A program made the translations under genes and the position numbers. From assembly GCA_026014685.1 (NCBI GenBank), contig JAOZHW010000007.1:124001-188000 (forward strand): a DNA stretch of 64,000 bases, in the 5' to 3' direction. The notes beneath the pieces are model-generated. The model was given only the letters and a program-made list of their open reading frames with translations, ran no database searches and was not told where the DNA came from. This DNA comes from Candidatus Bathyarchaeota archaeon (GTDB lineage Archaea > Thermoproteota > Bathyarchaeia > Bathyarchaeales > Bathycorpusculaceae). Shown here piece by piece: positions 3,577 to 56,342 of this stretch (position 1 is its first letter; every line of letters begins with the position of its first letter).

Positions 3577-3728
3577 TTAGTCTTTTACCCCTCTCGCGGA
3601 AGCACACACTCTTCTTTTGAACATCCATCAACAACATACGTATAAAAGCTTTAAGATTTGCCCTTTAAAAGTGGTAGAGGGTTTGCTGGGGTTTCTGGGT
3701 CATAATTCTTCTTAAGGAGAAAAGAAAA

Positions 3729-3932
3729 ATGAAAAACCACGATCGCAACATCGTAAGGTTAAACCAGAAACCCTCTCAGCCCCAGCTTCTAAAGCCAGAT
3801 TCAAACAAAGAAAAGGAGGGAAAGTTGATTTTTTCATCTACTTCACCGTTTATGGTCGTTTCTTTAGAACCAGCAAGGTCAACAAGATGCTTACTACGAC
3901 TAAGACGAAGAGGCCTGCGATTGCTGGAATGA
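3729..3932 (+). other. Small ORF with a strong ribosome binding site, doubtful
   Basis: An ATG at 3729 is preceded by AAGGAGAAAAGAAAA, nearly the same initiation region as those of the giant beta-propeller genes in this window. The ORF that follows (67 codons) starts MKNHDRNIVRLNQKPSQ, has no signal peptide and no recognisable domain, and its last third runs antisense into the 3' end of the propeller gene on the other strand. A TATA-like GTATAAAAG lies near 3639. It may be a tiny real gene, or the surviving start of a lost paralogue. Coding status is uncertain. Confidence 0.25.
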
Positions 3933-6507
3933 AGTACAGGTCAGCTGCTGATGGTGGCTGGGTTGGTTGTGGTGTGGCGGTTGCTGGTGCTTGGTCAACT
4001 GCGAAGGAAGTCATTGCACTTGAGGGGTAGTATGCGTTGCTACCGGCAAATGAAGCGTATACTAGATACTGACCGGGTATGTCGGGTTGGTAGTTGTAGG
4101 TGAAGAATCCGTCGACGGTGGTTGTGGTGCCTATGACTCTGTAGTTGCCGTTTGCGTCAACCACACTTAGGGTTACTTCAACGCCTGTTGTGGTTGTTGG
4201 TTTGTTCTGCTGCATGTAGACGTATTCCATCCACTGCTTCATGCTTGCGTCAGAGACACATGGGACGCCGTTGGGGAAGCGTGCTGCTTGTTCATCTTGG
4301 GTTGTGCCTGCGGCGATGTCAGTGACTGAGCCACGGATGACTAAACTTTGACCTTGGGTTATGGCTGCTGTTGGTGCTTCAACGGTTAGTTTGCTTGCAC
4401 CTTTACCGAGTGTGTAGATCTGCATGTCGTAGATGTTTAGGTACGTGAAGTAGCCGTCTGCTACGAGGTCAGTTTGGCCAACGTACATACCTGAGCCCAT
4501 ACCGGTTAGCGTCCAGATTTCTTCGCCAGTGGTAGCGTTTAAGCATCGGTATTGTGAGCCTTTGTAGAGTGGTTGGTCGGGTGAGTGCTCGGTTGTTGCT
4601 ACGTAGACTTTGCCGTCTGCGATAACGTTTACGAACGTTGGGTAGTGACCGTAGACTGTGTCTTGACCTGAGTTGGTGCTGTTGCCTTCGCCGCCGTTGC
4701 CGTAAGTCCATTTTAAGTTGCCGGTTTTCATGTCATAGCAGTAGACTATGCCATCGTAGCCTGAACAGTAGAGATTGTCATAAGCCCAGAGGTTAACTCT
4801 TCTTAGGGTATCCCATTCAACTACGAGGGCATTTGAAGTCCAAAGGTTGTTTCCATTGACAAGACTATAGCCGTTGAGTTCCAAGGTTTCCTTGTCTTCT
4901 GTAACGAAAACGTCTAAGTCTGCGTTTAGAGCGATGATTGTTCTGGTGACGTTTTTGCCTGTTGCAGCGTAGGATTTACTCATTAAGATGTGGCCAACAT
5001 TGTCAGGGTTTATGCTTACTACAGTTACGTTCATGCCTGTTTCTTGAGCTCTTGGACCAACACCCATACTGCCTTGTGTGAGCATTAGTTTGTTGCCGAC
5101 AGCGATGTCGCGGTAGATGCTCCAGCCTGTTCCAGTTAGCGATGAGAGGGATACGTTCCAGTCGTAGCAACTTGCCAGACTTGCATTGGAAGTGCCAGTG
5201 TACCAAACTGCATTGGCTGTCGTTGGTTGACCGCCGCCTTCGTTGGCAGGAATGAGAATCTTAGAGGAGTTCCATTGTGCCAGATACCAGTTGGGGTTTG
5301 ATGTGGTGCCGTAGTTTGTTAGAGTGTAAATTAGGTACTCGCCTCGTGGACCAGCTGCAATTGTGCCTGAAGGTACGTTGGTGATAGTCATTTGTGTAAG
5401 GACACCGTTTGAGGCATCGTATGCTTTCCATGTGGTTCCTTGACCGCTGTAGGATGTTGTAGACGCGATTAGTATGCCGTTGGGAAGAACACCGTGTTGG
5501 TTGCCGTTGGGTGATTCATAACTGTAGAGGTAACCGAAGGATGGGACAAGAGATACGCCTGTTGCGGATGCGTTGATGCGCCATAATTCTTGGCCTGTTT
5601 GTAGTTTTACTGCAACGTAGTCGCCGCCAGTGCCTGAGTTACCGTATGGTTCTTGATAGTATAGGATTCCCTGCATAACGATAGGGTTTGAGAATCGGGT
5701 GTTGTAAGAGCTGCCTGTGTAGAAGCCTTCACCATAGTTTGTAGTTGATGATCCGCCAACTACTCCACCTTGTTGGATGGGCTTAGTCCACATGATATGT
5801 TGAGTTTCTGGTGCTGAACCGTCTTTTTGGTATCTGCCGTATCCTGCACCGCCAGTGGCTGTAGCGCCTGAGCGGATGTAGGGGCCGTTTAGCCAGTTAG
5901 AGGAAATTACGTACCAGTTACTGTTTTGGCCGTTTATAGGTCGCGTCCAGTATTCAGTTGGAAGAGCAGCGGGGCTGGTTACGTCGCGAATTGGGTCTTC
6001 CTGTACGGTAAAGGTTGTTACTGCCTGAGCGGGAAGGAATGTGTCGTTCTCGAAAAGTGCGTTTGCTGCTGATAGCCCTGGAGTGTTAGAGGTGTTCCAA
6101 GTGTATACTTGTCCACCATACTTGAATGTCACTGTATAGTTTCCTACTTTACTTGGTGTGTATGAGTAGGCTTGGACGTTTGTTGTGTCTTGAACAACAT
6201 CCCAGTGCTGAGTTGTGTTTGAACCGTCTGGATCAGTTATGATCACGGTATAGTCGTGCCTGCGGATGTCGTTTGCTGCGGCTGAACCTGCTAGAGGTGT
6301 GTCAACCCACATGTAGACATACATTTTCTGCCCAACACCGATTGGGTTTGGGGCAGCAGTTACGTAGGCAAATGAAGTGATTTGCCATGCGGGAGTGTGT
6401 GCACTTGCGGTTGACAGTGCAGTCATTGGGATAGCTATGGATAGCGCAAGAACTATTGCGAATATTGAAAGTGTTTGCTTGCTAATTCTGTTTTTTGTTA
6501 AATTCAC
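3850..6507 (-). CDS. Secreted, membrane-anchored PQQ-like beta-propeller protein (paralogue 1)
   Basis: An 885-residue surface protein. It has an N-terminal signal peptide (hydrophobic about 13-36, ending ASA), an Ig-like domain (about 40-165, starting with the shared YVTAAPNPIGVGQ stretch), and a long central region of tryptophan-rich repeats such as LQTGQELWRINA and MKTGNLKWTYGN, typical of PQQ-like/quinoprotein beta-propellers. A second Ig-like or CarboxypepD_reg-like domain follows (about 740-840, GNYRVIGTTTTVDGFFTYNYQPDIPGQY), then a Thr/Pro linker, one transmembrane helix (about 857-880) and a KKRP cytoplasmic tail. The start is GTG with AGGAGA upstream. Two close paralogues lie at 18 and 21 kb. 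Function is unknown: a cell-surface or S-layer-associated role is inferred from topology, and PQQ binding is not shown. Confidence 0.85.
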   Translation of the reverse strand: MNLTKNRISKQTLSIFAIVLALSIAIPMTALSTASAHTPAWQITSFAYVTAAPNPIGVGQKMYVYMWVDTPLAGSAAANDIRRHDYTVIITDPDGSNTTQHWDVVQDTTNVQAYSYTPSKVGNYTVTFKYGGQVYTWNTSNTPGLSAANALFENDTFLPAQAVTTFTVQEDPIRDVTSPAALPTEYWTRPINGQNSNWYVISSNWLNGPYIRSGATATGGAGYGRYQKDGSAPETQHIMWTKPIQQGGVVGGSSTTNYGEGFYTGSSYNTRFSNPIVMQGILYYQEPYGNSGTGGDYVAVKLQTGQELWRINASATGVSLVPSFGYLYSYESPNGNQHGVLPNGILIASTTSYSGQGTTWKAYDASNGVLTQMTITNVPSGTIAAGPRGEYLIYTLTNYGTTSNPNWYLAQWNSSKILIPANEGGGQPTTANAVWYTGTSNASLASCYDWNVSLSSLTGTGWSIYRDIAVGNKLMLTQGSMGVGPRAQETGMNVTVVSINPDNVGHILMSKSYAATGKNVTRTIIALNADLDVFVTEDKETLELNGYSLVNGNNLWTSNALVVEWDTLRRVNLWAYDNLYCSGYDGIVYCYDMKTGNLKWTYGNGGEGNSTNSGQDTVYGHYPTFVNVIADGKVYVATTEHSPDQPLYKGSQYRCLNATTGEEIWTLTGMGSGMYVGQTDLVADGYFTYLNIYDMQIYTLGKGASKLTVEAPTAAITQGQSLVIRGSVTDIAAGTTQDEQAARFPNGVPCVSDASMKQWMEYVYMQQNKPTTTTGVEVTLSVVDANGNYRVIGTTTTVDGFFTYNYQPDIPGQYLVYASFAGSNAYYPSSAMTSFAVDQAPATATPQPTQPPSAADLYFIPAIAGLFVLVVVSILLTLLVLKKRP

Positions 6508-42092: not shown

Positions 42093-42101
42093 TCCGAAAC
42101 G

Positions 42102-42115
42102 CTTATATTTTAAAG
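42102..42115 (+). promoter_or_regulatory. TATA box of the aromatic amino acid operon
   Basis: CTTATATTTTAAAG lies 10 bp after the stop of the coiled-coil gene. Transcription would start about 25 bp downstream, near 42130-42137, only some 10 nt before the leader ORF start at 42145. The placement means the leader ORF would be at the very 5' end of the operon mRNA. Confidence 0.65.
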
Positions 42116-42144
42116 TCGGTGACTGTTTGGACAGGTTCGAAGCA

Positions 42145-42231
42145 ATGACCAACACACAACGCAGAAACGTTAATGCATGGCAACGCGACAGCTTCGACTA
42201 TGGCTTTTATTATTTCGGTTATTTTCCTTAA
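42145..42231 (+). CDS. Aromatic-residue leader peptide (candidate attenuator)
   Basis: A 28-codon ORF (ATG 42145, TAA 42229-42231) between the TATA box and aspartokinase. Residues 6-15 read RRNVNAWQRD and residues 17-27 read FDYGFYYFGYF, so 8 of 11 residues are Phe (4) or Tyr (4), with one Trp at residue 12. The operon it precedes makes chorismate, the precursor of all three, and ends with tyrosine-branch enzymes. It is followed with no gap by a 9-bp inverted repeat. No strong Shine-Dalgarno precedes it, consistent with a near-leaderless mRNA. It is too short to be a functional protein; a ribosome-sensing role is the natural reading but is an inference. Confidence 0.75.
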   Translation: MTNTQRRNVNAWQRDSFDYGFYYFGYFP

Positions 42232-42269
42232 GCCCAGAACTGAAAAATTTTTGTAAAGCGGTTCTGGGC
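42232..42269 (+). promoter_or_regulatory. Perfect 9-bp hairpin between leader ORF and aspartokinase
   Basis: GCCCAGAAC (42232-42240) and GTTCTGGGC (42261-42269) are exact complements. The 20-nt loop contains a T5 run (42248-42252), able to act as an archaeal terminator. The 5' arm begins at the base after the leader stop codon; the 3' arm ends 8 nt before a GGGTG Shine-Dalgarno (42277-42281). A ribosome at the leader stop would cover the 5' arm, whereas one stalled at the aromatic codons would leave it free. It could thus control termination or translation. Confidence 0.7.
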
Positions 42270-42290
42270 AGGGTATGGGTGTAATACGTT

Positions 42291-43535
42291 ATGACCAAAC
42301 AACTCTCTAAACGAAAAATCGTTGTTAAATTCGGCGGCTCCAGCCTCGCCGATCACGAACGCATGCTCAAAGCAGTTAATTCAGTGGTTAACGAAGCGAA
42401 GAGGGGCACAAAAATCGCTGTGGTAGTGTCCGCTATGGGCAAAACCACCGACGTTCTCTTAACCACCGCGAAAAACACCTCAAACGGCAAACTCGCCAAA
42501 CATGAACTCGACGATATCCTTTCCATGGGTGAACGCACCAGCGTACGCATATTTTCCACTGCGTTACGCAACAACGGTGTGGATTCCTGCTACTTTGATC
42601 CCATGGATAGTAACTGGCCCATAATCACTGACGACAAATTCCAGAACGCTAACCCTGACGTCAAAGCCTGCACAAAAAACATCGCCGAATACGTCCTGCC
42701 CATAGTGGAGAAAGGCACAATACCAGTAATCGCGGGGTTTGTGGGCAAAACAAAAGAAGGCAAAATCACCACTCTGGGCAGAGGCGGAAGCGATACAACC
42801 GCTTTCTTGTTAGCTGAGGGTATAGCTGCGGATCAAGTTGTTTTGGTCACTGACGCTGAAGGTATAATGTCTAGTGACCCCAAAATCATCCAGTCACCCC
42901 AAAGACTACCCACAATCGACGTCAACACTCTCGTGGGCTTGGCAGATTCGGGAGCGAAATTCATACACAGCAAAGCCCTCAAATACAAACCTAAAACAAT
43001 CGACGTCAAAGTCATCAGTAACGCATACGGGGACCTCAACAGAGAAGGCACCATCATCACAGGCGGTTTAGCCACTGAACTCGACGCTGAAATCGCGCAT
43101 CAAACCCCTGTCGCTGAAATCACAGTCATCGGTAACGGGTTATCCGCTAACCCTCAAGTCATCACCCAGATGATTGAGAAAGTCAAAGAGAACACTGTAC
43201 TTCTGGGTATGTCGATGAATACCAACTCGATCATCCTCTACGTGCCGCAGACAGAAAACATCGCTCAACTCTTCAACCAACTCCATCAAATCACAGTCAG
43301 CAACAAAGAAACTATAGCTATGGCAGTCAAAAGAGACCTTGTCTTCATCAAAACTAGCGGTGTCGGCTTAGAAGAAACGCATGGTATCATCGGCAGAATC
43401 AGCGAAGACCTCCGCGTCAACGGCATAAACATCAGCGGCATCCTCACCATCACGTCAAGTATTTTGCTGTTTGTAGATTGGAACGAGAGGGAGAAAGCGC
43501 TAAAGTTAATTAAAAACGCGCTCAAGTCACATTAG
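42291..43535 (+). CDS. lysC: Aspartate kinase
   Basis: 414 residues. It phosphorylates aspartate, the first step to aspartate semialdehyde. The amino acid kinase domain (about 10-265) has KFGGSSLADHERM at 13-25 and TTLGRGGSDTTAFLLAEG; two ACT domains (about 270-414) would give feedback control. It heads the aromatic operon, which makes sense in archaea because the next enzyme uses aspartate semialdehyde. The gene for aspartate-semialdehyde dehydrogenase is not in the window. GGGTG lies 9 nt before the ATG. Confidence 0.95.
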   Translation: MTKQLSKRKIVVKFGGSSLADHERMLKAVNSVVNEAKRGTKIAVVVSAMGKTTDVLLTTAKNTSNGKLAKHELDDILSMGERTSVRIFSTALRNNGVDSCYFDPMDSNWPIITDDKFQNANPDVKACTKNIAEYVLPIVEKGTIPVIAGFVGKTKEGKITTLGRGGSDTTAFLLAEGIAADQVVLVTDAEGIMSSDPKIIQSPQRLPTIDVNTLVGLADSGAKFIHSKALKYKPKTIDVKVISNAYGDLNREGTIITGGLATELDAEIAHQTPVAEITVIGNGLSANPQVITQMIEKVKENTVLLGMSMNTNSIILYVPQTENIAQLFNQLHQITVSNKETIAMAVKRDLVFIKTSGVGLEETHGIIGRISEDLRVNGINISGILTITSSILLFVDWNEREKALKLIKNALKSH

Positions 43536-43547
43536 GGGCAATTCAAA

Positions 43548-44339
43548 TTGAACGTAGGCAAAACCCGCAGACTCAAAAAAATCATGCAGAAAGATAACCG
43601 CACAGTAATCGTGCCCATGGATCACGGCGTAACCATCGGACCCGTCCAAGGCATAACCAACATGCAAAACATAACCAATCAGCTTCTCAAAGGCAAAGTT
43701 GACGCCATCTTGGTGCATAAAGGCATAGCTAAACGCATCGACGTGGACGGCGCAGGATTAATCGTTATGCTCTCAGGTGCATCCAACCTTGGTCCTAACC
43801 CCAACGGCAAAGTCCAAGTTTGCAGCGTGGGCGAAGCTCTTCGCCTTGGTGCCGACGCCGTAAGCGTACACGTCAACATTGGTGCACAGGACGAGGATAA
43901 GATGCTTGCGAATCTGGGTAAAGTCAGCGAAGAATGCGAGCATTATGGGTTGCCTTTGTTGGCGATGATGTATCCCCGTGGCCCAAAAATCACAAACGAA
44001 CATGCAGTCGAAGTGGTGGCGCATGCTGCCAGAATCGGCGCGGAACTCGGTGCAGACATCATCAAAACCAACTACACAGGTAACATAGACACATTCAAAA
44101 CCGTCACAGAAAGTTGCCCCGCTCCAGTAGTCATTGCGGGTGGACCGAAATGCAAATCAATGCAAGAAGTCCTACAAACCACGTTCGACGCGCTCAAAGC
44201 AGGCGCAGCTGGACTCTCGATTGGACGAAACGTGTTCCAATGTGAAAACCCAACCCAAATCGCAAAAGCCCTCTCCGCAATCGTGCATGAAGGCGCAACT
44301 GTAGAGCAGGCCCAAAAAATCCTCGGTGACAAACTTTGA
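43548..44339 (+). CDS. aroA': 2-amino-3,7-dideoxy-D-threo-hept-6-ulosonate synthase
   Basis: 263-residue class I aldolase-like enzyme (ADH synthase) that joins aspartate semialdehyde with a deoxyketohexose phosphate, replacing DAHP synthase of bacteria. Family features: [21 protein letters not shown] at the N-terminus, [11 protein letters not shown] with the probable Schiff-base Lys (about 184), and VVIAGGPK...[14 protein letters not shown] near the end. The start is TTG. It overlaps the next gene by 4 bp. Confidence 0.94.
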
Positions 44340-45376
44340 AGGAACTCTGGCTAGAAATCCCCAAAACAGCATCCCCGCAAGAAAAGGACGCTTTACTTAG
44401 CCTTGCCCACGAAAATGCTGATGTAGTTTTGGAGAATGGTCAAGCCAGAAACCGTGCGGGTAAACTGGACCTTACATTTCTATCCGAATTAAACGAGAAA
44501 ACTCTTGCTCAACTTAAAAAAGAGGGAAAAAAAACAGTTTTCCAAGTCACCATAAAGGGCAAAGAGGACGAGAACCGCGCTGCCAGAGCTGCAGAACTTG
44601 GCGTCGACTACGTCATCATCAACTGCCAAGACTGGCGCGTTATCCCACTTGAAAACCTTATCGCAAAAGGCAGAGGTAAAAGCAAACTAATCGCCGAAGT
44701 CCCCACCGCAGACGACGCCAAAGTGGTTTTGGAAGCGCTGGAACTGGGAACCGATGGCGTATTACTCCAAACTGGCAACCCTGCTGAGTTGGAGAAAGCA
44801 ATCAAACTTGTCAAAAACCAACTGCCCAAAATGGGTTTAACCACAGGCAAAATTCTCTCCGTCAAACCCATCGGAACAGGTGCTCGTGTTTGTGTGGATA
44901 CAGTGGATTTGATGGTGCCCGGTGAAGGCATGCTGGTAGGATGTCAATCCGCAGGCTTCTTCTTGGTCGAAGCGGAAGTCAGCGAGAACCCTTATGTGCA
45001 GTCACGGCCTTTCCGCGTAAACGCAGGACCCGCGTCACATTACACGTTGACTTCTTTGCAGGGCACCCGTTACCTCTCCGAGCTCAAGGCAGGCGACGAA
45101 GTTCTCATAGTAAGCCGTGAAGGCAAAGTACGAATTACCAATGTTGGCAGATCCAAAATTGAATTCCGACCGCTGATGCTTATTGAAGCTCAAGTGGACG
45201 ACACCAAAATCAAAACAATCCTCCAAAACGCCGAAACCATTCGCGTCGTTACCCCTAAAGCATCCAAACCCGTGACTGAACTCAAAGCGGGCGACGAGGT
45301 CTTGGTGCATTTGGCGGCGAAGGGAGGCAGACACTTCGGCATATCTGTGCCAGAAGAAACGGTGATTGAGAAGTGA
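44336..45376 (+). CDS. aroB': 3-dehydroquinate synthase II
   Basis: 346 residues of the archaeal DHQ synthase II family, which oxidatively deaminates and cyclises ADH to 3-dehydroquinate with NAD. It is unrelated to bacterial AroB. Motifs: [80 protein letters not shown] and [11 protein letters not shown]. The start is TTG with a 4-bp overlap to the gene before; its own stop overlaps aroD. Confidence 0.95.
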
Positions 45377-46056
45377 CGCCGAGAATCTGCGTCTCGATTC
45401 TTCCCAAAAACATCACAGAAGCTCAAGAACTGATATCAAAAGCCGAGGACGCAGAAGCTGATTTTGTTGAAGTCCGCATGGATTGCCTCGAAGAAACCCG
45501 CAACCTCAAAGACTTAACGGCGAGCACAAAAATCCCGCTTATAGCAACAAACAAACTTGAGAGCGAGAGAGGCTTTTTTTCTGGCAGCGAAACAGAGCGC
45601 CAACAAACCCTGCTCAACGCCGCTGAATGTGGCTTCAAATACATCGACGTTGACTTCCACAGCTCCAAACGCAACGAAACAATCGCTAAACTAAAAGCGC
45701 TAGGCGTTAAAATCATAGTTTCCTACCATAAATTCGACGGCATCCTAAACATTTCTTCGCTGGAAAAAATTATAGATGAACAAATCGCAAGCGGAGCTGA
45801 CATCTGCAAAATCGTCCTAACCGCGAGGCAAGTGGAAGATAACCTTCCTGTGCTCAGTTTTGTCTCCTTTGCCTCCGCCAAAGCCAAGCTTGTCTGCTTC
45901 TGTATGGGCGCAGAGGGTAAGACTTCACGGTTGCTTTCCCCAGTTTTCGGGGCTTTCTTCACTTTTGCCTCGCTAACTGAGGGTAGTGAGACTGCGGCGG
46001 GACAGATGAGTATAAAAGAAATGAAAGCCGCATACAAGCTGTTGGGGATTGGGTAA
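45373..46056 (+). CDS. aroD: 3-dehydroquinate dehydratase, type I
   Basis: 227 residues, TIM-barrel type I enzyme making 3-dehydroshikimate through a Schiff base. The catalytic pair is visible as His in VSYHKFDG (about 118) and Lys in ICKIVLTA (about 145); substrate-binding EVRMDCLEE is near 32-40. GTG start; overlaps both neighbours. Confidence 0.94.
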   Translation: MTPRICVSILPKNITEAQELISKAEDAEADFVEVRMDCLEETRNLKDLTASTKIPLIATNKLESERGFFSGSETERQQTLLNAAECGFKYIDVDFHSSKRNETIAKLKALGVKIIVSYHKFDGILNISSLEKIIDEQIASGADICKIVLTARQVEDNLPVLSFVSFASAKAKLVCFCMGAEGKTSRLLSPVFGAFFTFASLTEGSETAAGQMSIKEMKAAYKLLGIG

Positions 46057-46913
46057 TGACTATTTCGGGCAAAACTCGAGTTTGCGGAGTCATAGGTGAC
46101 CCCATCGAGCACACTCTAAGCCCCTGTATGCATAACGCGGCGTTTGAAGCGTTGGGGTTAGATTACGTGTTTTTAGCCTTCAAAGTTAAACCTGCCTGTG
46201 TAGCAGACGCCGTGAACGGCATGCGCGCGCTAAACATTCGGGGCTTAAACGTAACCATGCCCCACAAACACACAGTCATGGCAAACCTTGACCGCATCGA
46301 CCTCTCAGCTCAACTCATTGAATCAGTTAACACAATCCTAAACAAAGAAAACCTGCTTTTCGGCTTCAACACCGACGGTGTTGGCGCAGTGAAAGCCCTC
46401 AAAGAAAACGGCGTTGAACTCAAAGGCAGAAAAGTTCTCCTCTTAGGCGCAGGCGGCGCAGCTAGAGCCATAGCTTACGCGATGGCAAAAGAAGCTGACG
46501 AACTCGCGGTACTCAACCGCACCGTCAAGCAAGCCCAAGCCCTCGCAAGGCTGCTGGAAAAATCTGCGAACAAAAAAATCGCTTCAGGTTCCCTATCTCC
46601 AAGTGATATACAAAAAAACCTACGTGACTCCGACATATTAATCAACGCCACCTCCATCGGGATGAAGCCACACTCAGAAGAAACCCCTGTTCCACCCAAA
46701 CTGCTCAGACCCGACCTCTCAGTCATGGATATAGTTTACAATCCCCTTGAAACGAAGCTGGCTAAAGACGCCAAAGCTGCAGGAGCCAAAGTAATAAGTG
46801 GCGTTGAAATGCTCATTTACCAAGGCGCAGCCTCTTTTGAAATCTGGACAGGCAAATCTGCGCCCGTTGAAGTTATGAGGAAGGCAGCGCTTAACCGTTT
46901 AATGAAGGTGTAG
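46056..46913 (+). CDS. aroE: Shikimate dehydrogenase
   Basis: 285 residues. It reduces 3-dehydroshikimate with NADPH. Substrate-binding SPCMHNAAFEALGLDYVF and catalytic Lys in NVTMPHK (about 70); NADP site LLLGAGGAARAIAYA (about 129-143) followed by LNRT; NTDGVG and INATSIGM are conserved. The ATG overlaps the aroD stop by one base (TAATG). Confidence 0.95.
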   Translation: MTISGKTRVCGVIGDPIEHTLSPCMHNAAFEALGLDYVFLAFKVKPACVADAVNGMRALNIRGLNVTMPHKHTVMANLDRIDLSAQLIESVNTILNKENLLFGFNTDGVGAVKALKENGVELKGRKVLLLGAGGAARAIAYAMAKEADELAVLNRTVKQAQALARLLEKSANKKIASGSLSPSDIQKNLRDSDILINATSIGMKPHSEETPVPPKLLRPDLSVMDIVYNPLETKLAKDAKAAGAKVISGVEMLIYQGAASFEIWTGKSAPVEVMRKAALNRLMKV

Positions 46914-46920
46914 CAAGTTG

Positions 46921-47787
46921 ATGGGTAAAGCAGTGGCGGTAGCGCATGGCGCAGCGACAATCGTTAACGCGATTGCCCTGGGGAGGGGAGCAGCGTTTGG
47001 AGTTGATTTGTGGACAAAAGCAGAAGTCAAACTGACAAGTGAAGTGGGCGTTTTTGAGGTTAAAATCACTTCTGACCCCACTGAGAGTACTCTTCTAGTA
47101 GAAAAAACCGTTACTCGTGTCCTGCGAAGGTTTGGGTTAGAGAAATCTTTCGGGGCAAAAATAAAAACAGAATCAAACATCCCTGCAGCCCGCGGATTAA
47201 AAAGCAGTAGTGTAGTCGCAAATGCAACTGCCTTGGCAACCACCACAGCGTTAGGAAAAACACTGGATGATTTGGAGATAGTTAAAATCGGGGTTGAAGC
47301 GGCTTTCGACGCCAAATGCACAATTACAGGCGCTTTTGATGACGCATGCGCATCATACTTTGGAGGCGCAGTCATAACCGACAACACAAACCGACAAATC
47401 CTCAAACAGACCCAGCTACCAAAAGATTTTGCGGTGCTGTTCCATGTCCCAGCAAAAAAAGCTTACACCATCAACTCAGACGTTGCACGGCTACAAACGG
47501 TTAAGCCGCTTGTGGAGACCGCTTTCGAGAAGGCGATGGCTGGCAAACTCTGGGAAGCCTTAACCCTTAACGGGCTTGTTTACTCTGCTGCTTCTAACCA
47601 GAACGCCTCAATAGCCATCGACGCGTTGGCTGCTGGCGCCATCGCTGCAGGACTCTGCGGCAAAGGACCCGCCGTAACAGCCGTAACTCCAAACGACAAA
47701 GTAGACAGGGTCAAAGCTGAGCTTCAAAAGTATGAAGGCGAAGTCCTACTGACTCACTTCAACACTGAGAAAGCCAAGGTGCTCTAG
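46921..47787 (+). CDS. aroK: Shikimate kinase, archaeal GHMP type
   Basis: 288 residues of the GHMP kinase superfamily, the archaeal substitute for bacterial AroK. The ATP-binding motif is NIPAARGLKSSSVVANATALA (about 88-108), with FDDACASYFGGAVITDN in the middle and GLCGKGPAVTAVTP at the C-terminus. ATG 46921 is preferred; a TTG one codon upstream is possible. It lies 7 bp from aroE. Confidence 0.94.
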   Translation: MGKAVAVAHGAATIVNAIALGRGAAFGVDLWTKAEVKLTSEVGVFEVKITSDPTESTLLVEKTVTRVLRRFGLEKSFGAKIKTESNIPAARGLKSSSVVANATALATTTALGKTLDDLEIVKIGVEAAFDAKCTITGAFDDACASYFGGAVITDNTNRQILKQTQLPKDFAVLFHVPAKKAYTINSDVARLQTVKPLVETAFEKAMAGKLWEALTLNGLVYSAASNQNASIAIDALAAGAIAAGLCGKGPAVTAVTPNDKVDRVKAELQKYEGEVLLTHFNTEKAKVL

Positions 47788-47789
47788 CC

Positions 47790-49085
47790 ATGACCGATGT
47801 AACTGTGAAGCGAGCTTTGCGTCTAACTGGGGAAGTGGTGGCGCCGCCGTCGAAGTCCTACACCCAACGTATGGTCATAGCTACCGCGTTATCCGAGGGC
47901 ACCTCGAAGGTTTGGTACCCGCTGTTTTCAGAAGATACCGACGCCGCACTTCGAGCTGTAACCGCTTTGGGCGCTGGGTTCCAAGCCTGCGACGAACACT
48001 GGACAATAACAGGGGCAAAACCCCTCAAAGCAGCAAAAGCACCCGTTGACTGCGGAGAGTCAGGCGCAACCTTACGTTTCATGATACCTGTTGCGGCGCT
48101 AGCTGATGGCGCATCGACATTGGTTTTTCGTGGTTCGATTGAGCGACGCCCAGTGGAGCCGCTGTTAAAAAGCCTAAAAGACCTCGGCGCAGAAGCCCAT
48201 GTTGGCAAGATTGGCGACTTAGACGCCGTGTTCGTTGAGGGCGGTGGCATTGTGGGCGGAAAAACATCCATAGCGGGTGATGTGAGTTCACAGTTCATTT
48301 CTGGGTTAATGTTTGCTTGTCCGATGGCAAAGAAGGATGTGGAAATCAAGCTTACTTCGCCGTTGGAGTCTGTGGATTACGTGAAAATGACTCAGGCAGT
48401 TCTCTCCAAACACACAGTAAAAGTCACCTTAGAAGACAGACGTATCCTTATTCCCGCAGGTCAAACCTACAAGTCAGCCGATCACACCGTTCCAGGAGAC
48501 TTCTCCTCAGCCGCATTCCTACTAGCCGCCGCAGCCATAACCCGTTCCAAAGTCACAGTCGCAAACCTCGATTACGAGAGCGTGCAGGGCGATAAAGCCA
48601 TCCTCACAGTGCTCAAACGTATGGGTGTCAACGGAAAGGTCTGCCCAGACAGCGTCGAAATCAAAGGAACAGGCGCCTCGCTCAAACCCGTTGATGTGGA
48701 CGCCAAAAACATTCCTGACCTTGTTCCAGTTATCGCGGTGTTGGCATGCTATACAGACGGTGTGTCGCATATTTCGGGGGCAAAAAGGCTTCGGCTCAAG
48801 GAATCCGACCGTCTGCAATCTATCTTTGTGGAACTCACCAAAATGGGTGCCCAAATTACCATAACAGACGACGGCTTAACTATAAAAGGCACCCCGCTCC
48901 ACGGCGCAGTCATCGACCCCCACAACGACCACCGAATTGCCATGGCAGTAGCCGTCGCCGCGTTAGGTGCAGAAGGCGAAACCACAGTTACAGACGCAGA
49001 GTGCATCAGAAAGTCTTATCCGCAGTTCTTCCATCATCTAAAGCAATTAGGAGTTGACGTTGTTGGCGGGAAACTCGATAGGTAA
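47790..49085 (+). CDS. aroA: 3-phosphoshikimate 1-carboxyvinyltransferase (EPSP synthase)
   Basis: 431 residues. It transfers the enolpyruvyl group of PEP to shikimate 3-phosphate. The N-terminal PPSKSYTQRMVIATALSEG (with family Lys and Ser/Arg), CGESGATLRFMIPVAAL, GDVSSQFISGLMFA, LRLKESDRLQSI and DPHNDHRIAMAVAVAAL motifs are all present. It overlaps aroC by some 20 bp. Confidence 0.96.
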   Translation: MTDVTVKRALRLTGEVVAPPSKSYTQRMVIATALSEGTSKVWYPLFSEDTDAALRAVTALGAGFQACDEHWTITGAKPLKAAKAPVDCGESGATLRFMIPVAALADGASTLVFRGSIERRPVEPLLKSLKDLGAEAHVGKIGDLDAVFVEGGGIVGGKTSIAGDVSSQFISGLMFACPMAKKDVEIKLTSPLESVDYVKMTQAVLSKHTVKVTLEDRRILIPAGQTYKSADHTVPGDFSSAAFLLAAAAITRSKVTVANLDYESVQGDKAILTVLKRMGVNGKVCPDSVEIKGTGASLKPVDVDAKNIPDLVPVIAVLACYTDGVSHISGAKRLRLKESDRLQSIFVELTKMGAQITITDDGLTIKGTPLHGAVIDPHNDHRIAMAVAVAALGAEGETTVTDAECIRKSYPQFFHHLKQLGVDVVGGKLDR

Positions 49086-50166
49086 AGAATTCACGGTAAC
49101 CACGTTTGGCGAAAGCCACGGCAAAGTCGTCGGCGTCGTCGTGGACGGTTGCCCCGCGGGGCTGCCGCTTGTCGAAGCTGATTTTCAAGAGGAACTGGAC
49201 AGGCGAATTCCAGCGGAACCCAAAATCGTCTCAGCTCGAGTTGAAAAGGACACAGCCAAAATCCTCAGCGGCGTCTTCAACGGCTACACCACAGGCGCAC
49301 CCATCGCCCTGACGGTTGAGAACAAGGAAACTAAATCCAGCGACTACGACGCCATAAAAGACTTCCCCAGACCCGCCCACTCCGACTACCCCGCCAAAAT
49401 CCGATACGGCGGCTTCAACGATTACCGAGGTGGCGGACGCTTCAGCGGACGCGTAACTGTGGCGCTTATCATGGCTGGTGTTGTCGCTAAGAAGCTGCTG
49501 GGCAGATACAACATCGACGTATTAGCCTACACCAAAGCCATCGGACCAGTCAAAAGCACCAAAGCTTTCACTGCGGCGGAAATTCGCAAAAACCGCTACG
49601 CAGCCGCGACCCGGTGCCCCGATTTGGCGTGCGCCGAAAAAATGGAAGAAGCCATCATCAACGCAAAGTCAGAAGGTGACAGCCTCGGCGGAGTCATCGA
49701 ATGCTTAGCTCTAAACATGCCCGCAGGCGTCGGCGAACCCCTCTTTGATACGCTTGATGGGGATTTGGCGAAGGCGCTTTTCAGTGTACCCGCCGTCAAG
49801 GGAGTCGAGTTCGGTGCAGGTTTTAGGGCTGCAGAGTTGCGTGGCTCAGAAAACAACGACTCTTTCCTGGTTAAAGGCGGTAAGGTTGTGACGGCGTCGG
49901 AGAACGCTGGCGGCATCTTAGGAGGCTTATCCAGCGGTATGCCCATCGTCATCCGTGTTGCAATCAAACCCACACCGTCCATCGCTAAAGAGCAGCAAAC
50001 CGTCAACCTTTCTTCAATGAAAAACGTCCCGCTATCCGTGAAAGGTCGGCATGACCCCTGTGTGGTGCCCAAAGCGGTGCCCGCCATCGAAGCAGCAGTC
50101 GCAGTAACGTTAGTGGATCACTTGATTCGTTTAGGCGAGATCCCCAAAACTCTCAAGGAGCATTAA
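49063..50166 (+). CDS. aroC: Chorismate synthase
   Basis: 367 residues from TTG 49063 (MAGNSIGKEFTVTTFGESHG), the usual N-terminus of the family; an in-frame TTG at 49054 would add three residues. FMN-dependent last step to chorismate. Signatures: GESHGKVVGVVVDGCPAG, PRPAHSDYPAKIRYGGFNDYRGGGRFSGR, and RHDPCVVPKAVPAIEAAVA near the end. Confidence 0.96.
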   Translation: MAGNSIGKEFTVTTFGESHGKVVGVVVDGCPAGLPLVEADFQEELDRRIPAEPKIVSARVEKDTAKILSGVFNGYTTGAPIALTVENKETKSSDYDAIKDFPRPAHSDYPAKIRYGGFNDYRGGGRFSGRVTVALIMAGVVAKKLLGRYNIDVLAYTKAIGPVKSTKAFTAAEIRKNRYAAATRCPDLACAEKMEEAIINAKSEGDSLGGVIECLALNMPAGVGEPLFDTLDGDLAKALFSVPAVKGVEFGAGFRAAELRGSENNDSFLVKGGKVVTASENAGGILGGLSSGMPIVIRVAIKPTPSIAKEQQTVNLSSMKNVPLSVKGRHDPCVVPKAVPAIEAAVAVTLVDHLIRLGEIPKTLKEH

Positions 50167-50169
50167 AGT

Positions 50170-50430
50170 ATGGAAGATATTGCAGTGTTGCGTGAAAAAG
50201 TCGATGCAGTCGACGACCAAATTCTAAGAGACCTAGTTCAGCGAGTAAAAATCTGCCGCGCCATAGGCGAACTAAAAAAGCAGCAGGGTAAACCAGTCCA
50301 CGATATCCACAGAGAAACCGAAGTCCTAAAACGCGTCAGAGAAAGAGCCGAAATGCTCAAGCTTGACCCAGATAAGATTGAGCGGATTTACCGCGAAATA
50401 GTTAATATGTGCAGTAGCGTTCAACAGTAG
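50170..50430 (+). CDS. Chorismate mutase, AroQ type
   Basis: 86-residue all-helical monofunctional chorismate mutase that converts chorismate to prephenate. Conserved active-site residues appear in REKVDAVDDQILRDLVQRVKICRAIGELKKQQGKPVHDIHRETEVLKRV, including the Arg/Lys/Asp pattern of helices 1 and 2. It lies 3 bp after aroC, with GGTG-less spacing, so it probably depends on coupled translation. Confidence 0.93.
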   Translation: MEDIAVLREKVDAVDDQILRDLVQRVKICRAIGELKKQQGKPVHDIHRETEVLKRVRERAEMLKLDPDKIERIYREIVNMCSSVQQ

Positions 50431-50458
50431 GAGAACTCTCAACGGAGAGCCGTTCCCT

Positions 50459-51538
50459 ATGCTGTATGAAATAAACGAGAAAGCACTTAAACTGGAAAGT
50501 GAAGGAAAAAAGATAATTCGATTAAACCTCGGCGACCCAGACATGGCTACGCCCCCCGAAATTGTGGAAGCAGCTTACGCTTCTATGAAAGCGGGCAAAA
50601 CCAAGTATAGTTCCTCTTATGGGGAATTGCGGTTGCGCCAAAAAATCGCTGAGGTACACGGCGTCAAAGCAGAAAACGTGGTGATCACCCCCGGTTCGAA
50701 ATGGGCGATTTTCTCCACGATGTTTCTAATGCTCAAAAACGGCGGCAACGTCATCATCCCCACGCCATATTGGACGGCTTACGATTTAATCGCAAAGAGT
50801 TTTGGCGCGAAAGTCAAACTGCTTCGCACTGAAATGGAGAACGGCTGGAACGTTGACCTTGAAAAACTTGAGGGTTTGATTGACAGCGAGACAAAGATGA
50901 TTATCTTAAACAACCCTAACAACCCAACCAGCAAAGTCATGGACTCCAAAACCCTCGACGGCATAGTAGAGATCGCCAACAAAAAAGGCGTAACCATTCT
51001 AAGCGACGAGGTTTATGGTGCAATCGCATTCAACAAAACTAAAAGCATACTCGACTATGGCGCCGATAGCAAACACATAGTCAGCAACGGCTTTAGCAAA
51101 ACCTTCACCATGACAGGCTGGCGAATAGGCTACGTCGTCGCAAACAAAACCTTAATCGACAACATCACCAAACTCAACCAAATCACCTTCAACAACGTGC
51201 CCGTCTTCATCCAAGACGCCGCACTCAAAGGCTTAGAGTTACACGCACAAATCGCCAGCAACATCAAAGCAAAATACAAAGCCCGCGCAGACCTCGCCTC
51301 AACCAAACTTAAAGCTGCCGGTTTCAAATTCACAGCGCCCGACGCACCCTTCTACGTTTTCCCCAAACGCGACGGCTTAGACGGCACCAAATTCACTCTC
51401 GACCTCCTCGACCGCGGCGTCGCTGTGGCTCCAGGCTCAAGCTTCGGTGAATACCCCGAACACTTCCGCATCAGCCTAACCGCACCCGACGACCAAATCG
51501 AAGAGGGCTTAACGAAAATCTGCGAGGCACCCCTCTGA
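50459..51538 (+). CDS. PLP-dependent aminotransferase (aromatic/aspartate type)
   Basis: 359 residues, class I/II aminotransferase: RLNLGDPDMATPP, NNPNNPTSK, LSDEVYGAI and the PLP lysine Lys214 in SNGFSKTFTMTGWRIGY. Its place in the aromatic operon suggests it transaminates 4-hydroxyphenylpyruvate (or prephenate). The protein is 15-20 residues shorter at the N-terminus than most relatives. In-frame upstream codons encode RRTLNGEPFP without an ATG, GTG or TTG, so the true start or the local sequence may differ. ATG 50459 has GGAGAG 9 nt upstream. Its stop overlaps tyrA. Confidence 0.9.
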   Translation: MLYEINEKALKLESEGKKIIRLNLGDPDMATPPEIVEAAYASMKAGKTKYSSSYGELRLRQKIAEVHGVKAENVVITPGSKWAIFSTMFLMLKNGGNVIIPTPYWTAYDLIAKSFGAKVKLLRTEMENGWNVDLEKLEGLIDSETKMIILNNPNNPTSKVMDSKTLDGIVEIANKKGVTILSDEVYGAIAFNKTKSILDYGADSKHIVSNGFSKTFTMTGWRIGYVVANKTLIDNITKLNQITFNNVPVFIQDAALKGLELHAQIASNIKAKYKARADLASTKLKAAGFKFTAPDAPFYVFPKRDGLDGTKFTLDLLDRGVAVAPGSSFGEYPEHFRISLTAPDDQIEEGLTKICEAPL

Positions 51539-52410
51539 TGAGGACGGCGGTTCTTGGCGCGGGAAAAATGGGTGTCTGGTTTGCCAAATGGTGCAAAGAG
51601 AAAGGCGACACAGTTGTTCTCGCTGACAGGAACCCCCAGAAACTCGCAAAGTTAGGCAAAGAGTTAGGTGTGGAAACCGCTGATTTTCCAGATGCAGTAA
51701 AAGGCGCTGACCGCGTTTTAATCTGCGTATCCATCTCTTCTTTTGAGGAAATCGTCAAAAAAATCGCGCCCGCCATCCACAAAGGGCAACCCATCATGGA
51801 TATCTGCTCCATCAAAGAGTACCCCGTTAACGTAATGCATCAACACCTCAAGGACGCGCTGGTTTTAGGCACTCACCCAGTGTTTGGCCCCGGCAGCAAC
51901 GGCGTAGCACACAAAGCTTACGTCCTGACCCCGACCAACAAAGAGGAAGAGGCGTATGCCAAAGAATTCCAGAAGTGGCTTCAAAAAGAGGACGCCCGCG
52001 TTTTTGTCATGTCGCCCCAGAAGCATGATGAACTTATGTCCATCGTGCTTGGGTTTGCGCATTTTGTGGGTTTAGCCACATGCGAAACTCTACTTGAGCA
52101 ACCTGCGTTCGCTGAGTCGAAGAAGTTGGCGGGCACCACCTACCGCATGCTGTTCACGCTTGCAGAGGCGGTTGCGCAGGAAACCCCTGACCTCTACGCC
52201 AACGTGCAGACCAAACTGGCGGGGCTGGATGAAATCGAGCAGTCCTTCATCGCTAATGCGGAGGCATGGTTAGAGTTGATGAAAAAGAAGGATTCTGCCG
52301 CTATCATGGAGCGTATGGAGCGGCTTCGCAAGAAATTGGGCAAAGTGGACAGTGAATACGGTAAAAGTTACGAAGTTATGTATAGGATGCTACAGTCAAC
52401 CGAGGAGTGA
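51538..52410 (+). CDS. tyrA: Prephenate dehydrogenase
   Basis: 290 residues. An N-terminal Rossmann domain (MRTAVLGAGKMGVWFAKWCKEKG; LADRNPQKL) is followed by GTHPVFGPGSNG and a helical dimerisation domain with LGFAHFVGLATCETLL. It oxidatively decarboxylates prephenate to 4-hydroxyphenylpyruvate, on the tyrosine branch. No ACT domain is present. The ATG overlaps the aminotransferase stop (TGATG). Confidence 0.92.
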   Translation: MRTAVLGAGKMGVWFAKWCKEKGDTVVLADRNPQKLAKLGKELGVETADFPDAVKGADRVLICVSISSFEEIVKKIAPAIHKGQPIMDICSIKEYPVNVMHQHLKDALVLGTHPVFGPGSNGVAHKAYVLTPTNKEEEAYAKEFQKWLQKEDARVFVMSPQKHDELMSIVLGFAHFVGLATCETLLEQPAFAESKKLAGTTYRMLFTLAEAVAQETPDLYANVQTKLAGLDEIEQSFIANAEAWLELMKKKDSAAIMERMERLRKKLGKVDSEYGKSYEVMYRMLQSTEE

Positions 52411-54006: not shown

Positions 54007-54819
54007 TTAGATGACTCTGGGGTAGCTTCCCAGAATCTTGACGAAAGTCGCAAACTTCTCCAACGCTTCCAGCGCTTCTGCGCAGTGTTTTTCAGTTCTA
54101 TGACCTTCAAAGTCGAGGTAAAAGTTGTATTGCCACGCTGTGGTTTTGGTGGGGCGGGATTCGATGCGGGTGAGGTTGATGTTGCGTGATGCGAATTCGC
54201 CCAGTGCATGGTAGAGGGTTCCCGGTGCGTGTTTAGCGCTGAAGATAATGCTGGTTTTGTCGTCTCCCGTCGGCGCTGCATCTTCCAAGCCTAAGACGAG
54301 GAAGCGGGTGTAGTTGCTTGGGTTGTCAGCGATGTCTCGTGCGAGGATTTTCATGTTGTAGAGGTCTGCGGCTTTTTCGCTTGCAATGGCAGCGGCGTTC
54401 GATAAAGCTTTTTCTTTGATGATTTTAACTGAGCCTGCGGTGTCGTAGGCAGGGATGATTTCCCATTTGTGTTTTTCAAGGTATTTGCGGCACTGCGCTA
54501 GCGCTTGTGGGTGTGAGTAAACGGTTTCTATATCTTCGAGTTTAGTTTGGGGATTGCCGATCAAGACGTGGGCGAGTTTAACTGCGACTTCGCCGCAGAC
54601 TTTAAGGTCATAAGTTAAGAAGAGGTCGTAGTTTTGGTTGACGCTGCCCTCAATCGAGTTCTCAATCGGGACGACGCCGTGTGGAACGGTGCCTGTTTTG
54701 ACTGATTCGAAAACGTCTCGGAAATCCTTGCAGGGCACTGGCTCTACTTTTCTGCCAAAAAACTTGTAGACCGCCATTTCGCTGTATGCGCCAGTTTCGC
54801 CCTGATAGGTTACCTTCAT
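54007..54819 (-). CDS. pheA: Prephenate dehydratase
   Basis: 270 residues. The PDT domain (about 1-180) has VTYQGETGAYSEMAVYKFFG, GVVPIENSIEGSVNQNYDLF, SHPQALAQCRKYLE and the catalytic Thr region NYTRFLVLG (about 168-176). A C-terminal ACT domain (about 192-265: TSIIFSAKHAPGTLYHALGEFASRNINLTRIESRP) gives feedback inhibition by phenylalanine. It is the last gene of the branched-chain operon, overlapping leuA by 4 bp, away from the aromatic operon that ends on the opposite strand. Confidence 0.95.
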   Translation of the reverse strand: MKVTYQGETGAYSEMAVYKFFGRKVEPVPCKDFRDVFESVKTGTVPHGVVPIENSIEGSVNQNYDLFLTYDLKVCGEVAVKLAHVLIGNPQTKLEDIETVYSHPQALAQCRKYLEKHKWEIIPAYDTAGSVKIIKEKALSNAAAIASEKAADLYNMKILARDIADNPSNYTRFLVLGLEDAAPTGDDKTSIIFSAKHAPGTLYHALGEFASRNINLTRIESRPTKTTAWQYNFYLDFEGHRTEKHCAEALEALEKFATFVKILGSYPRVI

Positions 54820-56342
54820 TGTTTCTTGCCTTGATTACGATTCTTTAGTAGGCACTTGTTTATACCGTTTATCATTGCTTCCACCGATGCCATGACTATG
54901 TCTTCTCGGGCGGCGCGTGCTGATACTATGTTGCCTTTTTCGTCTTCGACTTTTATGACAACTTCAGCAACTGCGTTAGAGCCTCCCGTGATGGCTTCGA
55001 GGCGGTATTCGCTTAAGCGGATTTTTTCGAGGTTGCTGGTTAATTTCTGGATGGCTTTTAGCACTGCATCTACTGGGCCGACGCCTGTTTCTGCAGCAAC
55101 GTACTCTTTGCCGTCTAAGGTTAAGCGTACGGAGGCGGTCGGGATTACTTTTATGCCGGTAACCACTGCCATGTCGCAGAGGTCAACGATTTTTTCTTCC
55201 CCAACTACTTGACCCATAACAGTAGAGGTTATTGCAATGAGGTCTGCGTCGGTAACCATTTTGCCTTTGTCGCCTAACTCTTTGACCCGTTTGACGATGT
55301 CACTCAGTTGGGCTTCGGTTGGGTGGATACCGATTTCTTGTAACTCCGCTTTGATGCCACGTGTGCCAGCCAGTTTGCCTGCGACGAGTTTGCGGGTTCT
55401 TCCGACGAGTTCGGGGCTGATGGGTTCGAAGGTTAAGGGTTGCTCGGTTACGCCTCGGGTGTGGATTCCTGATTCGTGTGCGAAGGCGTTTTCGCCGACT
55501 ATGGCTTTGTTTACCTGTACGGTGATGCCTGTTAGGGATGAGACCATGCGGCTGGTGCTGTAGAGTAAACGTGTGTTTATGTTGGTTTTGTACTTGTAAA
55601 CCACATGTAATGTAGTGACAACTTCTTCTAAGGCAGCGTTTCCTGCGCGTTCACCTAACCCATTTACTGCTGTGTGTACTTGTGAGGCGCCTGCTTCGAC
55701 AGCTGCGAGGCTGTTTGCTACAGCTAAACCGAAGTCGTTGTGGCAGTGTACACTAATTGGCACTTTAACAGTTGTTTTCAATTCAGTTATTAACTCAGCC
55801 ATGGTCTTGGGAATCATGATACCAACGGTGTCAGGCACGTTTAAACTGTCCATCCCTGCGTCCTGTGTGGCTTTGCAGATTTTCTTCAGAAAAGGCAACT
55901 CACTGCGGGTTGCATCCATAGGCGAGAACTCGCAGGTTACACCATGTTTCTTCACGTATTCAACGGATTCCACCGCCGAAGCCAATACCTGTTCGGGTGT
56001 CATGCTAACTGCATATTTCATCTGAACAGGTGACGTGGGGATGAATACATGGATTAAGTCTACGTTGCAATCCAATGCTGCATCTATGTCTTTTTTTGTG
56101 CACCGAGATAAGGCGCAGATTTTTGAGTTTAAACCCAATTTAGCGATGTCTTTGACGACTTTGCGTTCGCCTTCAGAACTACTGGGAAAACCTGCTTCGA
56201 TGATGTCGACGCCTAGTTTGCTTAGTTGGCGTGCTATCTCGATTTTGTCGTCAGTTGTTAGAGAAACGCCGGGGGTTTGTTCCCCGTCGCGCAAAGTTGT
56301 ATCTAAAATGCGGATAGTTCTTGTTTGAGTTTCTTTTGTCAT
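54816..56342 (-). CDS. leuA: 2-isopropylmalate synthase / (R)-citramalate synthase family
   Basis: 508 residues. HMGL-like TIM barrel with DTTLRDGEQTPGVSL (about 14-28), VHCHNDFGLAVANSLAAVEAG (metal-binding HCHND) and NGLGERAGNAALEEVV. The LeuA dimer (allosteric) domain occupies about 375-495. The family includes isopropylmalate and citramalate synthases, which are hard to tell apart by eye. The operon (leuCDB, ilvBN) fits either leucine synthesis or the threonine-independent isoleucine route. It overlaps pheA and lies 6 bp after leuB. Confidence 0.9.
   Translation of the reverse strand: MTKETQTRTIRILDTTLRDGEQTPGVSLTTDDKIEIARQLSKLGVDIIEAGFPSSSEGERKVVKDIAKLGLNSKICALSRCTKKDIDAALDCNVDLIHVFIPTSPVQMKYAVSMTPEQVLASAVESVEYVKKHGVTCEFSPMDATRSELPFLKKICKATQDAGMDSLNVPDTVGIMIPKTMAELITELKTTVKVPISVHCHNDFGLAVANSLAAVEAGASQVHTAVNGLGERAGNAALEEVVTTLHVVYKYKTNINTRLLYSTSRMVSSLTGITVQVNKAIVGENAFAHESGIHTRGVTEQPLTFEPISPELVGRTRKLVAGKLAGTRGIKAELQEIGIHPTEAQLSDIVKRVKELGDKGKMVTDADLIAITSTVMGQVVGEEKIVDLCDMAVVTGIKVIPTASVRLTLDGKEYVAAETGVGPVDAVLKAIQKLTSNLEKIRLSEYRLEAITGGSNAVAEVVIKVEDEKGNIVSARAAREDIVMASVEAMINGINKCLLKNRNQGKKQ

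Follow-up and report, generated by a model that had tools for sequence, protein, structure and literature searches.

Does the position of a ribosome on a short upstream reading frame govern an aromatic amino acid operon in an archaeon? The question is raised by a stretch of 64,000 nucleotides of DNA (the window, by which the whole stretch analysed is meant) from the Bathycorpusculum group of Bathyarchaeia, in which a short open reading frame (ORF) ending in Phe and Tyr codons precedes an operon for aromatic amino acid synthesis. A first-pass annotation, made from sequence alone, had read this ORF as an aromatic leader-peptide attenuator of the bacterial kind while knowing of no established archaeal example, a statement that agrees with Blombach et al. 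2021 (PMC8448881), according to whom no archaeal attenuation or antitermination was then known. No archaeal leader-peptide attenuator since 2021 was found in the mainly open-access literature searched. Comparison of related genomes supports the attenuator reading: the supply of Phe- and Tyr-tRNA likely determines, through a ribosome-mediated attenuator, how strongly the ADH-type aromatic operon is expressed. There are no expression data, and stalling, the tRNA response, the polarity, and the off-step are still inferred.

The leader and the operon it precedes

The elements that the first-pass annotation had listed (a TATA box, a 28-codon ORF with eight Phe/Tyr codons and one Trp, a hairpin with a T5 loop, and a Shine-Dalgarno sequence) were all confirmed in the sequence, with the BRE/TATA promoter placed here at 42094-42111 and previously at 42102-42115. 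The features are as follows.

42094..42111, + strand: BRE/TATA promoter CCGAAACGCTTATATTTT, from sequence; also kept before the leader in relatives
about 42131-42135, + strand: predicted transcription start
42133..42143, + strand: segment 1, AGGTTCGAAGC; predicted mRNA 5′ end and leader ribosome-binding region
42145..42231, + strand: leader ORF, MTNTQRRNVNAWQRDSFDYGFYYFGYFP and stop; 28 codons, ATG at 42145, TAA at 42229-42231
42190..42198, + strand: segment 2, AGCTTCGAC, covering the Ser-Phe-Asp codons with which the Phe/Tyr run opens; pairs with segment 1
42193..42225, + strand: putative control codons F17, Y19, F21, Y22, Y23, F24, Y26 and F27, from codon counts over 76 leaders
42232..42242, + strand: segment 3, hairpin 5′ arm; adjoins the leader stop codon
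42248..42252, + strand: T5 run in the hairpin loop, from sequence
42259..42269, + strand: segment 4, hairpin 3′ arm, from pairing tests
42277-42281, + strand: Shine-Dalgarno-like GGGTG of aspartokinase, from sequence; co-evolving pairing to leader segments not seen in general
42291..43535, + strand: aspartokinase, first gene of the operon (NF005159, E 3e-119; ATG at 42291)
within 43548..52410, + strand: ADH synthase, DHQ synthase II, aroD, aroE and archaeal shikimate kinase (NCBIfam matches)
within 43548..52410, + strand: aroA, aroC, aminotransferase and prephenate dehydrogenase, the rest of the operon (NCBIfam matches)

The operon thus holds the shikimate pathway and prephenate dehydrogenase (tyrA), with no trp genes. 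Because aspartate semialdehyde is the starting point of the archaeal ADH pathway, an aspartokinase at the operon head makes sense; a second, distant aspartokinase (29% identity) is encoded elsewhere in the genome. The relatives found in public contigs are Candidatus Bathyarchaeota, among them a Bathyarchaeota MAG (95% aspartokinase identity) and Bathycorpusculum species reaching up to 85%. A prephenate dehydratase-like gene (pheA) lies behind a leuA-like gene at 54007-56342 on the minus strand, outside the putatively leader-controlled operon; on account of this location, the Phe branch step would escape control by the leader.

Eight Phe or Tyr residues fall among residues 17-27 of the leader, the single Trp being residue 12. 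The chance of at least 8 aromatic residues in 12 is ~9e-9 given the composition of the operon proteins and 1e-6 given any-frame composition. The hairpin arms GCCCAGAAC, beginning at 42232, and GTTCTGGGC, ending at 42269, form a helix extendable to 11 bp (GCCCAGAACTG/CGGTTCTGGGC), and the region from the leader stop to the aspartokinase ATG folds at -21.6 kcal/mol. The whole 171-nt leader shows no unusual folding stability (z -0.84); the signal resides in the position of the elements and their covariation, not in overall stability. No U run directly follows the hairpin in the window, the T5 run being in the loop ahead of the 3′ arm. A further pairing had escaped the first-pass annotation, that of TCGAAGC (42137-42143), just 5′ of the leader ATG, with GCTTCGA at the Ser-Phe-Asp codons. 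Within the same segment 1, GGTTC (42134-42138) pairs weakly with segment 3.

Conservation of the leader and co-evolution of its helices

Orthologs of the aspartokinase (cut-off E < 1e-95) were recovered from 101 of the 257 genomes of the class, in 35 genera. The upstream regions compared come from 92 non-duplicate loci, with families and genera denoted by f and g numbers. The first-pass annotation would have been refuted by relatives having the operon without an aromatic-rich ORF or hairpin. Such an ORF is present in 76 of the 92 regions, spanning 27 genera and 9 families, and ends 38-78 nt 5′ of the aspartokinase start as estimated from alignment. In nearly all of these leaders a stable hairpin begins within -3 to +3 nt of the stop codon (one locus, L078, has none after the stop and L083 only a short one), and the aspartokinase Shine-Dalgarno sequence nearly always comes after it. 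A TATA-like centre lies mostly 20-44 nt 5′ of the leader start (18 examples). The 15 clear absences, 9 in f10 and 6 in f15, are confined to these two families, and one further region is truncated by a contig end. Beyond the class, clear leaders with hairpins precede the gene at L178 (ending in FGFFYGFYFYFYFGP and a stop), L179, and L180; L182, L184, and L185 are at best weak candidates, and no leader was seen in the upstream regions of L181 and L183.

In place of a leader, f10 loci L101, L103-L107, L111, and L114 carry a conserved stretch, ATGGGTGGTCATCTTTACTGGCAT, upstream of aspartokinase, and f15 loci L084-L087 a conserved GGTGATCATCTTTTCGGTGATGGCGTTTA-like stretch. Each stretch might be a regulatory RNA of a different kind or encode a short peptide (MGGHLYWH or MGDHLFGDGVY); an Rfam search of five f10 loci gave a best E of 0.82, which is chance level.

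The aromatic enrichment is sharply localized. Across the 76 leaders, the last 13 codons specify a mean of 7.7 aromatic residues (Phe 3.6, Tyr 3.9, and Trp 0.2 per leader), and codons -14 to -24 are just 6% aromatic. The same 13 positions contain 571 TTT, TTC, TAT, and TAC codons, against one TTA and no TTG, from which selection on the leader codons is inferred; translation has not been observed. The near-equal use of Phe and Tyr and the rarity of Trp are in line with an operon that has tyrA and no trp genes. Leaders of the window's genus are 25-29 codons long; their N-termini vary, and toward the C-terminus a Ser/Asn-Phe motif leads into the Phe/Tyr run. Distant families have different peptides, such as NPYYYYYYYCFF (L090), FYAYSYSFRYF (L074), and RFFTYFSGYYTTF (L092), each directly before the stop; the f12 leader of L188 and L090 has seven Tyr codons in a row, then CFF and the stop. 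Between families, the peptide is therefore free to vary except for its aromaticity, a pattern that, as far as sequence comparison allows inference, fits the sensing of codons.

The combination is also specific. Six or more aromatic codons ahead of a stop that itself carries a hairpin occurred at 49 of 462 ORF starts in the fetched DNA, 48 of which are the leader element (some loci being duplicates of one genome) and one unrelated. Within the window's genus the pattern matched in 13 of 31 genomes, once in each, and all matches that were located relative to the aspartokinase gene lie directly 5′ of it; in a scan of the entire window the aspartokinase leader was the sole aromatic-rich match. In a scan that was not exhaustive, neither the surroundings of trpE and hisG in relatives nor this genome's own trp and his operons yielded a Trp- or His-rich leader. 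A palindrome, GTATGGTTGTGAACCATAC, lies between a TATA-like box and trpE (L173, 9729-9747, minus strand, on G000:C8) and is possibly, judging from its sequence, the operator of a DNA-binding trp regulator. The start of the his operon (hisG onward) occurs twice in the same assembly, on G000:C3 around 94224 (L174) and on G000:C19 at 2374-6350 (L175), each copy preceded by a related gene for a putative regulator.

Hairpin sequences are unrelated between families, an unrelated hairpin substituting at the same place after the stop; it is the layout, and not the hairpin or peptide sequence, that comparison shows to be constant. Among 44 f1-type sequences, the compensatory changes that the first-pass annotation had proposed to look for are present: in the hairpin, L050 replaces C-G by T-A, and g34 and L052 alter inner pairs with pairing kept. 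In the 7-bp core of helix 1:2, 307 of 308 cells are paired, and L019 shows a double change there. A cognate test, which sets the duplex energies of segments drawn from one genome against those of segments drawn from different genomes, assumes no alignment; it was run with one sequence per genus and also within single groups, the leader start for segment 1 being picked by rule where several start codons were possible. With one sequence per genus, cognate pairs were stronger for 3:4, the post-stop hairpin (z -9.8 and -11.1), for 1:2, which joins the mRNA 5′ end to the aromatic-codon segment (z -4.5), and for 1:3, which joins it to the hairpin 5′ arm (z -3.9 and -4.0). No cognate excess was found at this sampling for 2:3, 2:4, 4:5, 3:5, 1:5, 2:5, or 1:4, pairings that serve as base-composition controls. 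Sequence comparison thus shows 3:4, 1:2, and 1:3 to be the only co-evolving helices, and 1:3 and 3:4 are mutually exclusive, as in attenuators. An E. coli-style 2:3 antiterminator was rejected for lack of co-evolution. Two qualifications attach to single groups: 3:5 reached p 0.003 in f6 alone and was not seen elsewhere, and in the window's genus 1:2 is nearly invariant, leaving the test no power, while 1:3 is weak and not significant (p about 0.09-0.10).

Proposed mechanism and rival explanations

What comparison establishes is an ORF at the predicted mRNA 5′ end, its Phe/Tyr-codon end, helix 3:4 adjoining the stop, and 1:2 or 1:3 as alternatives; that the ribosome chooses among these helices by its position is inferred. 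In the favoured model, a ribosome that has completed the leader would sit at the stop codon and cover segment 3, blocking 3:4 while RNA polymerase passes. With 3:4 blocked, the untranslated gap before aspartokinase would be lost to termination (at a U-tract, through FttA, or both) or to poor initiation, which is the off state. Upon shortage of Phe- or Tyr-tRNA, the ribosome would halt 5′ of segment 3 and 3:4 would form, giving the on state, and in an untranslated leader the 5′ end would fold back as 1:3, or as 1:2 with the leader start blocked. Hairpin 3:4 would thereby stand in place of the bacterial antiterminator (2:3). Archaeal termination does not depend on a terminator hairpin, so none is required here; what FttA depends on is nascent RNA that is exposed and contains U-rich stretches (PMC11616081). 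The first-pass annotation had left the polarity in doubt; the assignment of stalling to hairpin formation and expression is now favoured, by inference from geometry, because the 5′ arm occupies the place of the antiterminator and would be covered by a ribosome at the stop.

The off-step is less settled. A caveat attaches to the earlier suggestion of a T5 terminator: the run is real, and in most f1-type genomes, as in most members of the window's genus, T runs in the gap exceed the length expected from composition, but about ten genomes of that genus have no gap T run of 4 or more. The loop run is thus not essential as such, U-tract termination is argued against in those genomes, and the off-step may differ among genomes. 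Counting against the favoured polarity, a U4-U5 run directly follows the hairpin in f12, f9, and f1/g23, as it would in a terminator. Against the attenuator explanation as a whole stand the weakness of 1:3 in the window's own genus and the f10 and f15 families, which have the operon without the leader.

The most serious rival keeps the sensor and reverses the polarity. Helix 3:4 would then switch the operon off, either like a terminator or by blocking initiation, and a stalled ribosome would cover segment 2 and free segment 1 for 1:3 as the antiterminator. This remains possible: the helices it needs, 1:2, 1:3, and 3:4, are precisely those found to co-evolve, and the U runs of f12, f9, and f1/g23 are where it would place them. 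Against it, the hairpin adjoins the stop codon, and a ribosome terminating there would by its presence prevent pairing; the T run of the window's genus is in the loop, 5′ of the 3′ arm; and 1:3, far weaker than 3:4 in that genus, would have to form around the stalled ribosome. Translational control, with the leader ribosome toggling access to the aspartokinase ribosome-binding site, draws support from the hairpin end adjoining the Shine-Dalgarno sequence and from L110 (CTCCTTTTGGAGG), L089, and L090, in which the 3′ arm could pair with that sequence once the 5′ arm is covered. It is unlikely, however, given that predicted access is the same in the stalled and terminating states (mean difference -0.01 over 30 in the genus) and that co-evolution is absent for 4:5 (z +1.6 with one sequence per genus). 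As a general rule, sequestration of the Shine-Dalgarno sequence by the 3′ arm is not supported by accessibility modelling or by the cognate tests.

Two further explanations carry little weight. The peptide might arrest its own ribosome by sensing free aromatic amino acids in the exit tunnel, as TnaC does, or be a functional microprotein; the aromatic C-terminus of all leader-bearing families is compatible with this, but residue order is not fixed, Phe and Tyr interchange, and length differs between families, whereas arrest peptides have fixed residues, making the proposal very unlikely. Still less likely is an incidental ORF, with the repeated TTCGAAGC/GCTTCGA serving a repressor as half-sites of its DNA operator. 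TTCGAA is palindromic and near the predicted transcription start, but segments 1 and 2 change together between families with complementarity kept, and selection acts on the leader codons.

Relation to known systems

The element resembles the pheL, trpL, and hisL attenuators in having a short ORF rich in codons for the pathway products just 5′ of a biosynthetic operon and mutually exclusive helices that involve the leader. In bacteria the antiterminator 5′ arm directly follows the leader stop codon, as the hairpin does here. The archaeal element differs in that the 5′ end of the mRNA, where the leader starts, serves as segment 1; in that the supported helices are 1:2, 1:3, and 3:4, both a 2:3 helix and a second hairpin being absent; and in reading two amino acids about equally. 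Three attenuator criteria are met, namely a short translatable ORF between promoter and first gene, enrichment in end-product codons, and mutually exclusive leader helices, the choice among which by the ribosome is inferred. An intrinsic terminator hairpin with a U run before the first gene is lacking in the window, and the element is for this reason called attenuator-like, not a strict member. Nor does it qualify as a Shine-Dalgarno-sequestering attenuator, there being no alternation of a hairpin arm with Shine-Dalgarno pairing. T-box riboswitches share the signal, tRNA charging, which is inferred for the leader, but differ from it in that the leader has a translatable ORF and no covariance-model match in Rfam (none at gathering score in the window, and none for three leader loci with E allowed up to 1). 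DNA-binding control of the TrpY type likewise governs archaeal amino acid operons, and the trp operon of this genome has its candidate operator; the aromatic operon has instead an RNA/ORF element, of which no counterpart was seen at trp or his.

A bolder reading would make this the first archaeal attenuator, sensing Phe- and Tyr-tRNA phylum-wide, with a hairpin that antiterminates a hairpin-free terminator (U-tract or FttA) and an origin either independent of bacterial attenuation or anciently shared with it; the evidence at present falls a little short of favouring it. Comparison gives strong support, throughout a class and outside it, for the control of an archaeal operon through ribosome position. 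The coupling of transcription and translation in archaea thereby gains a regulatory role that can be put to the test, and the element would explain how the alternative route to aromatic amino acids, starting at aspartokinase, may be tied to the supply of Phe and Tyr.
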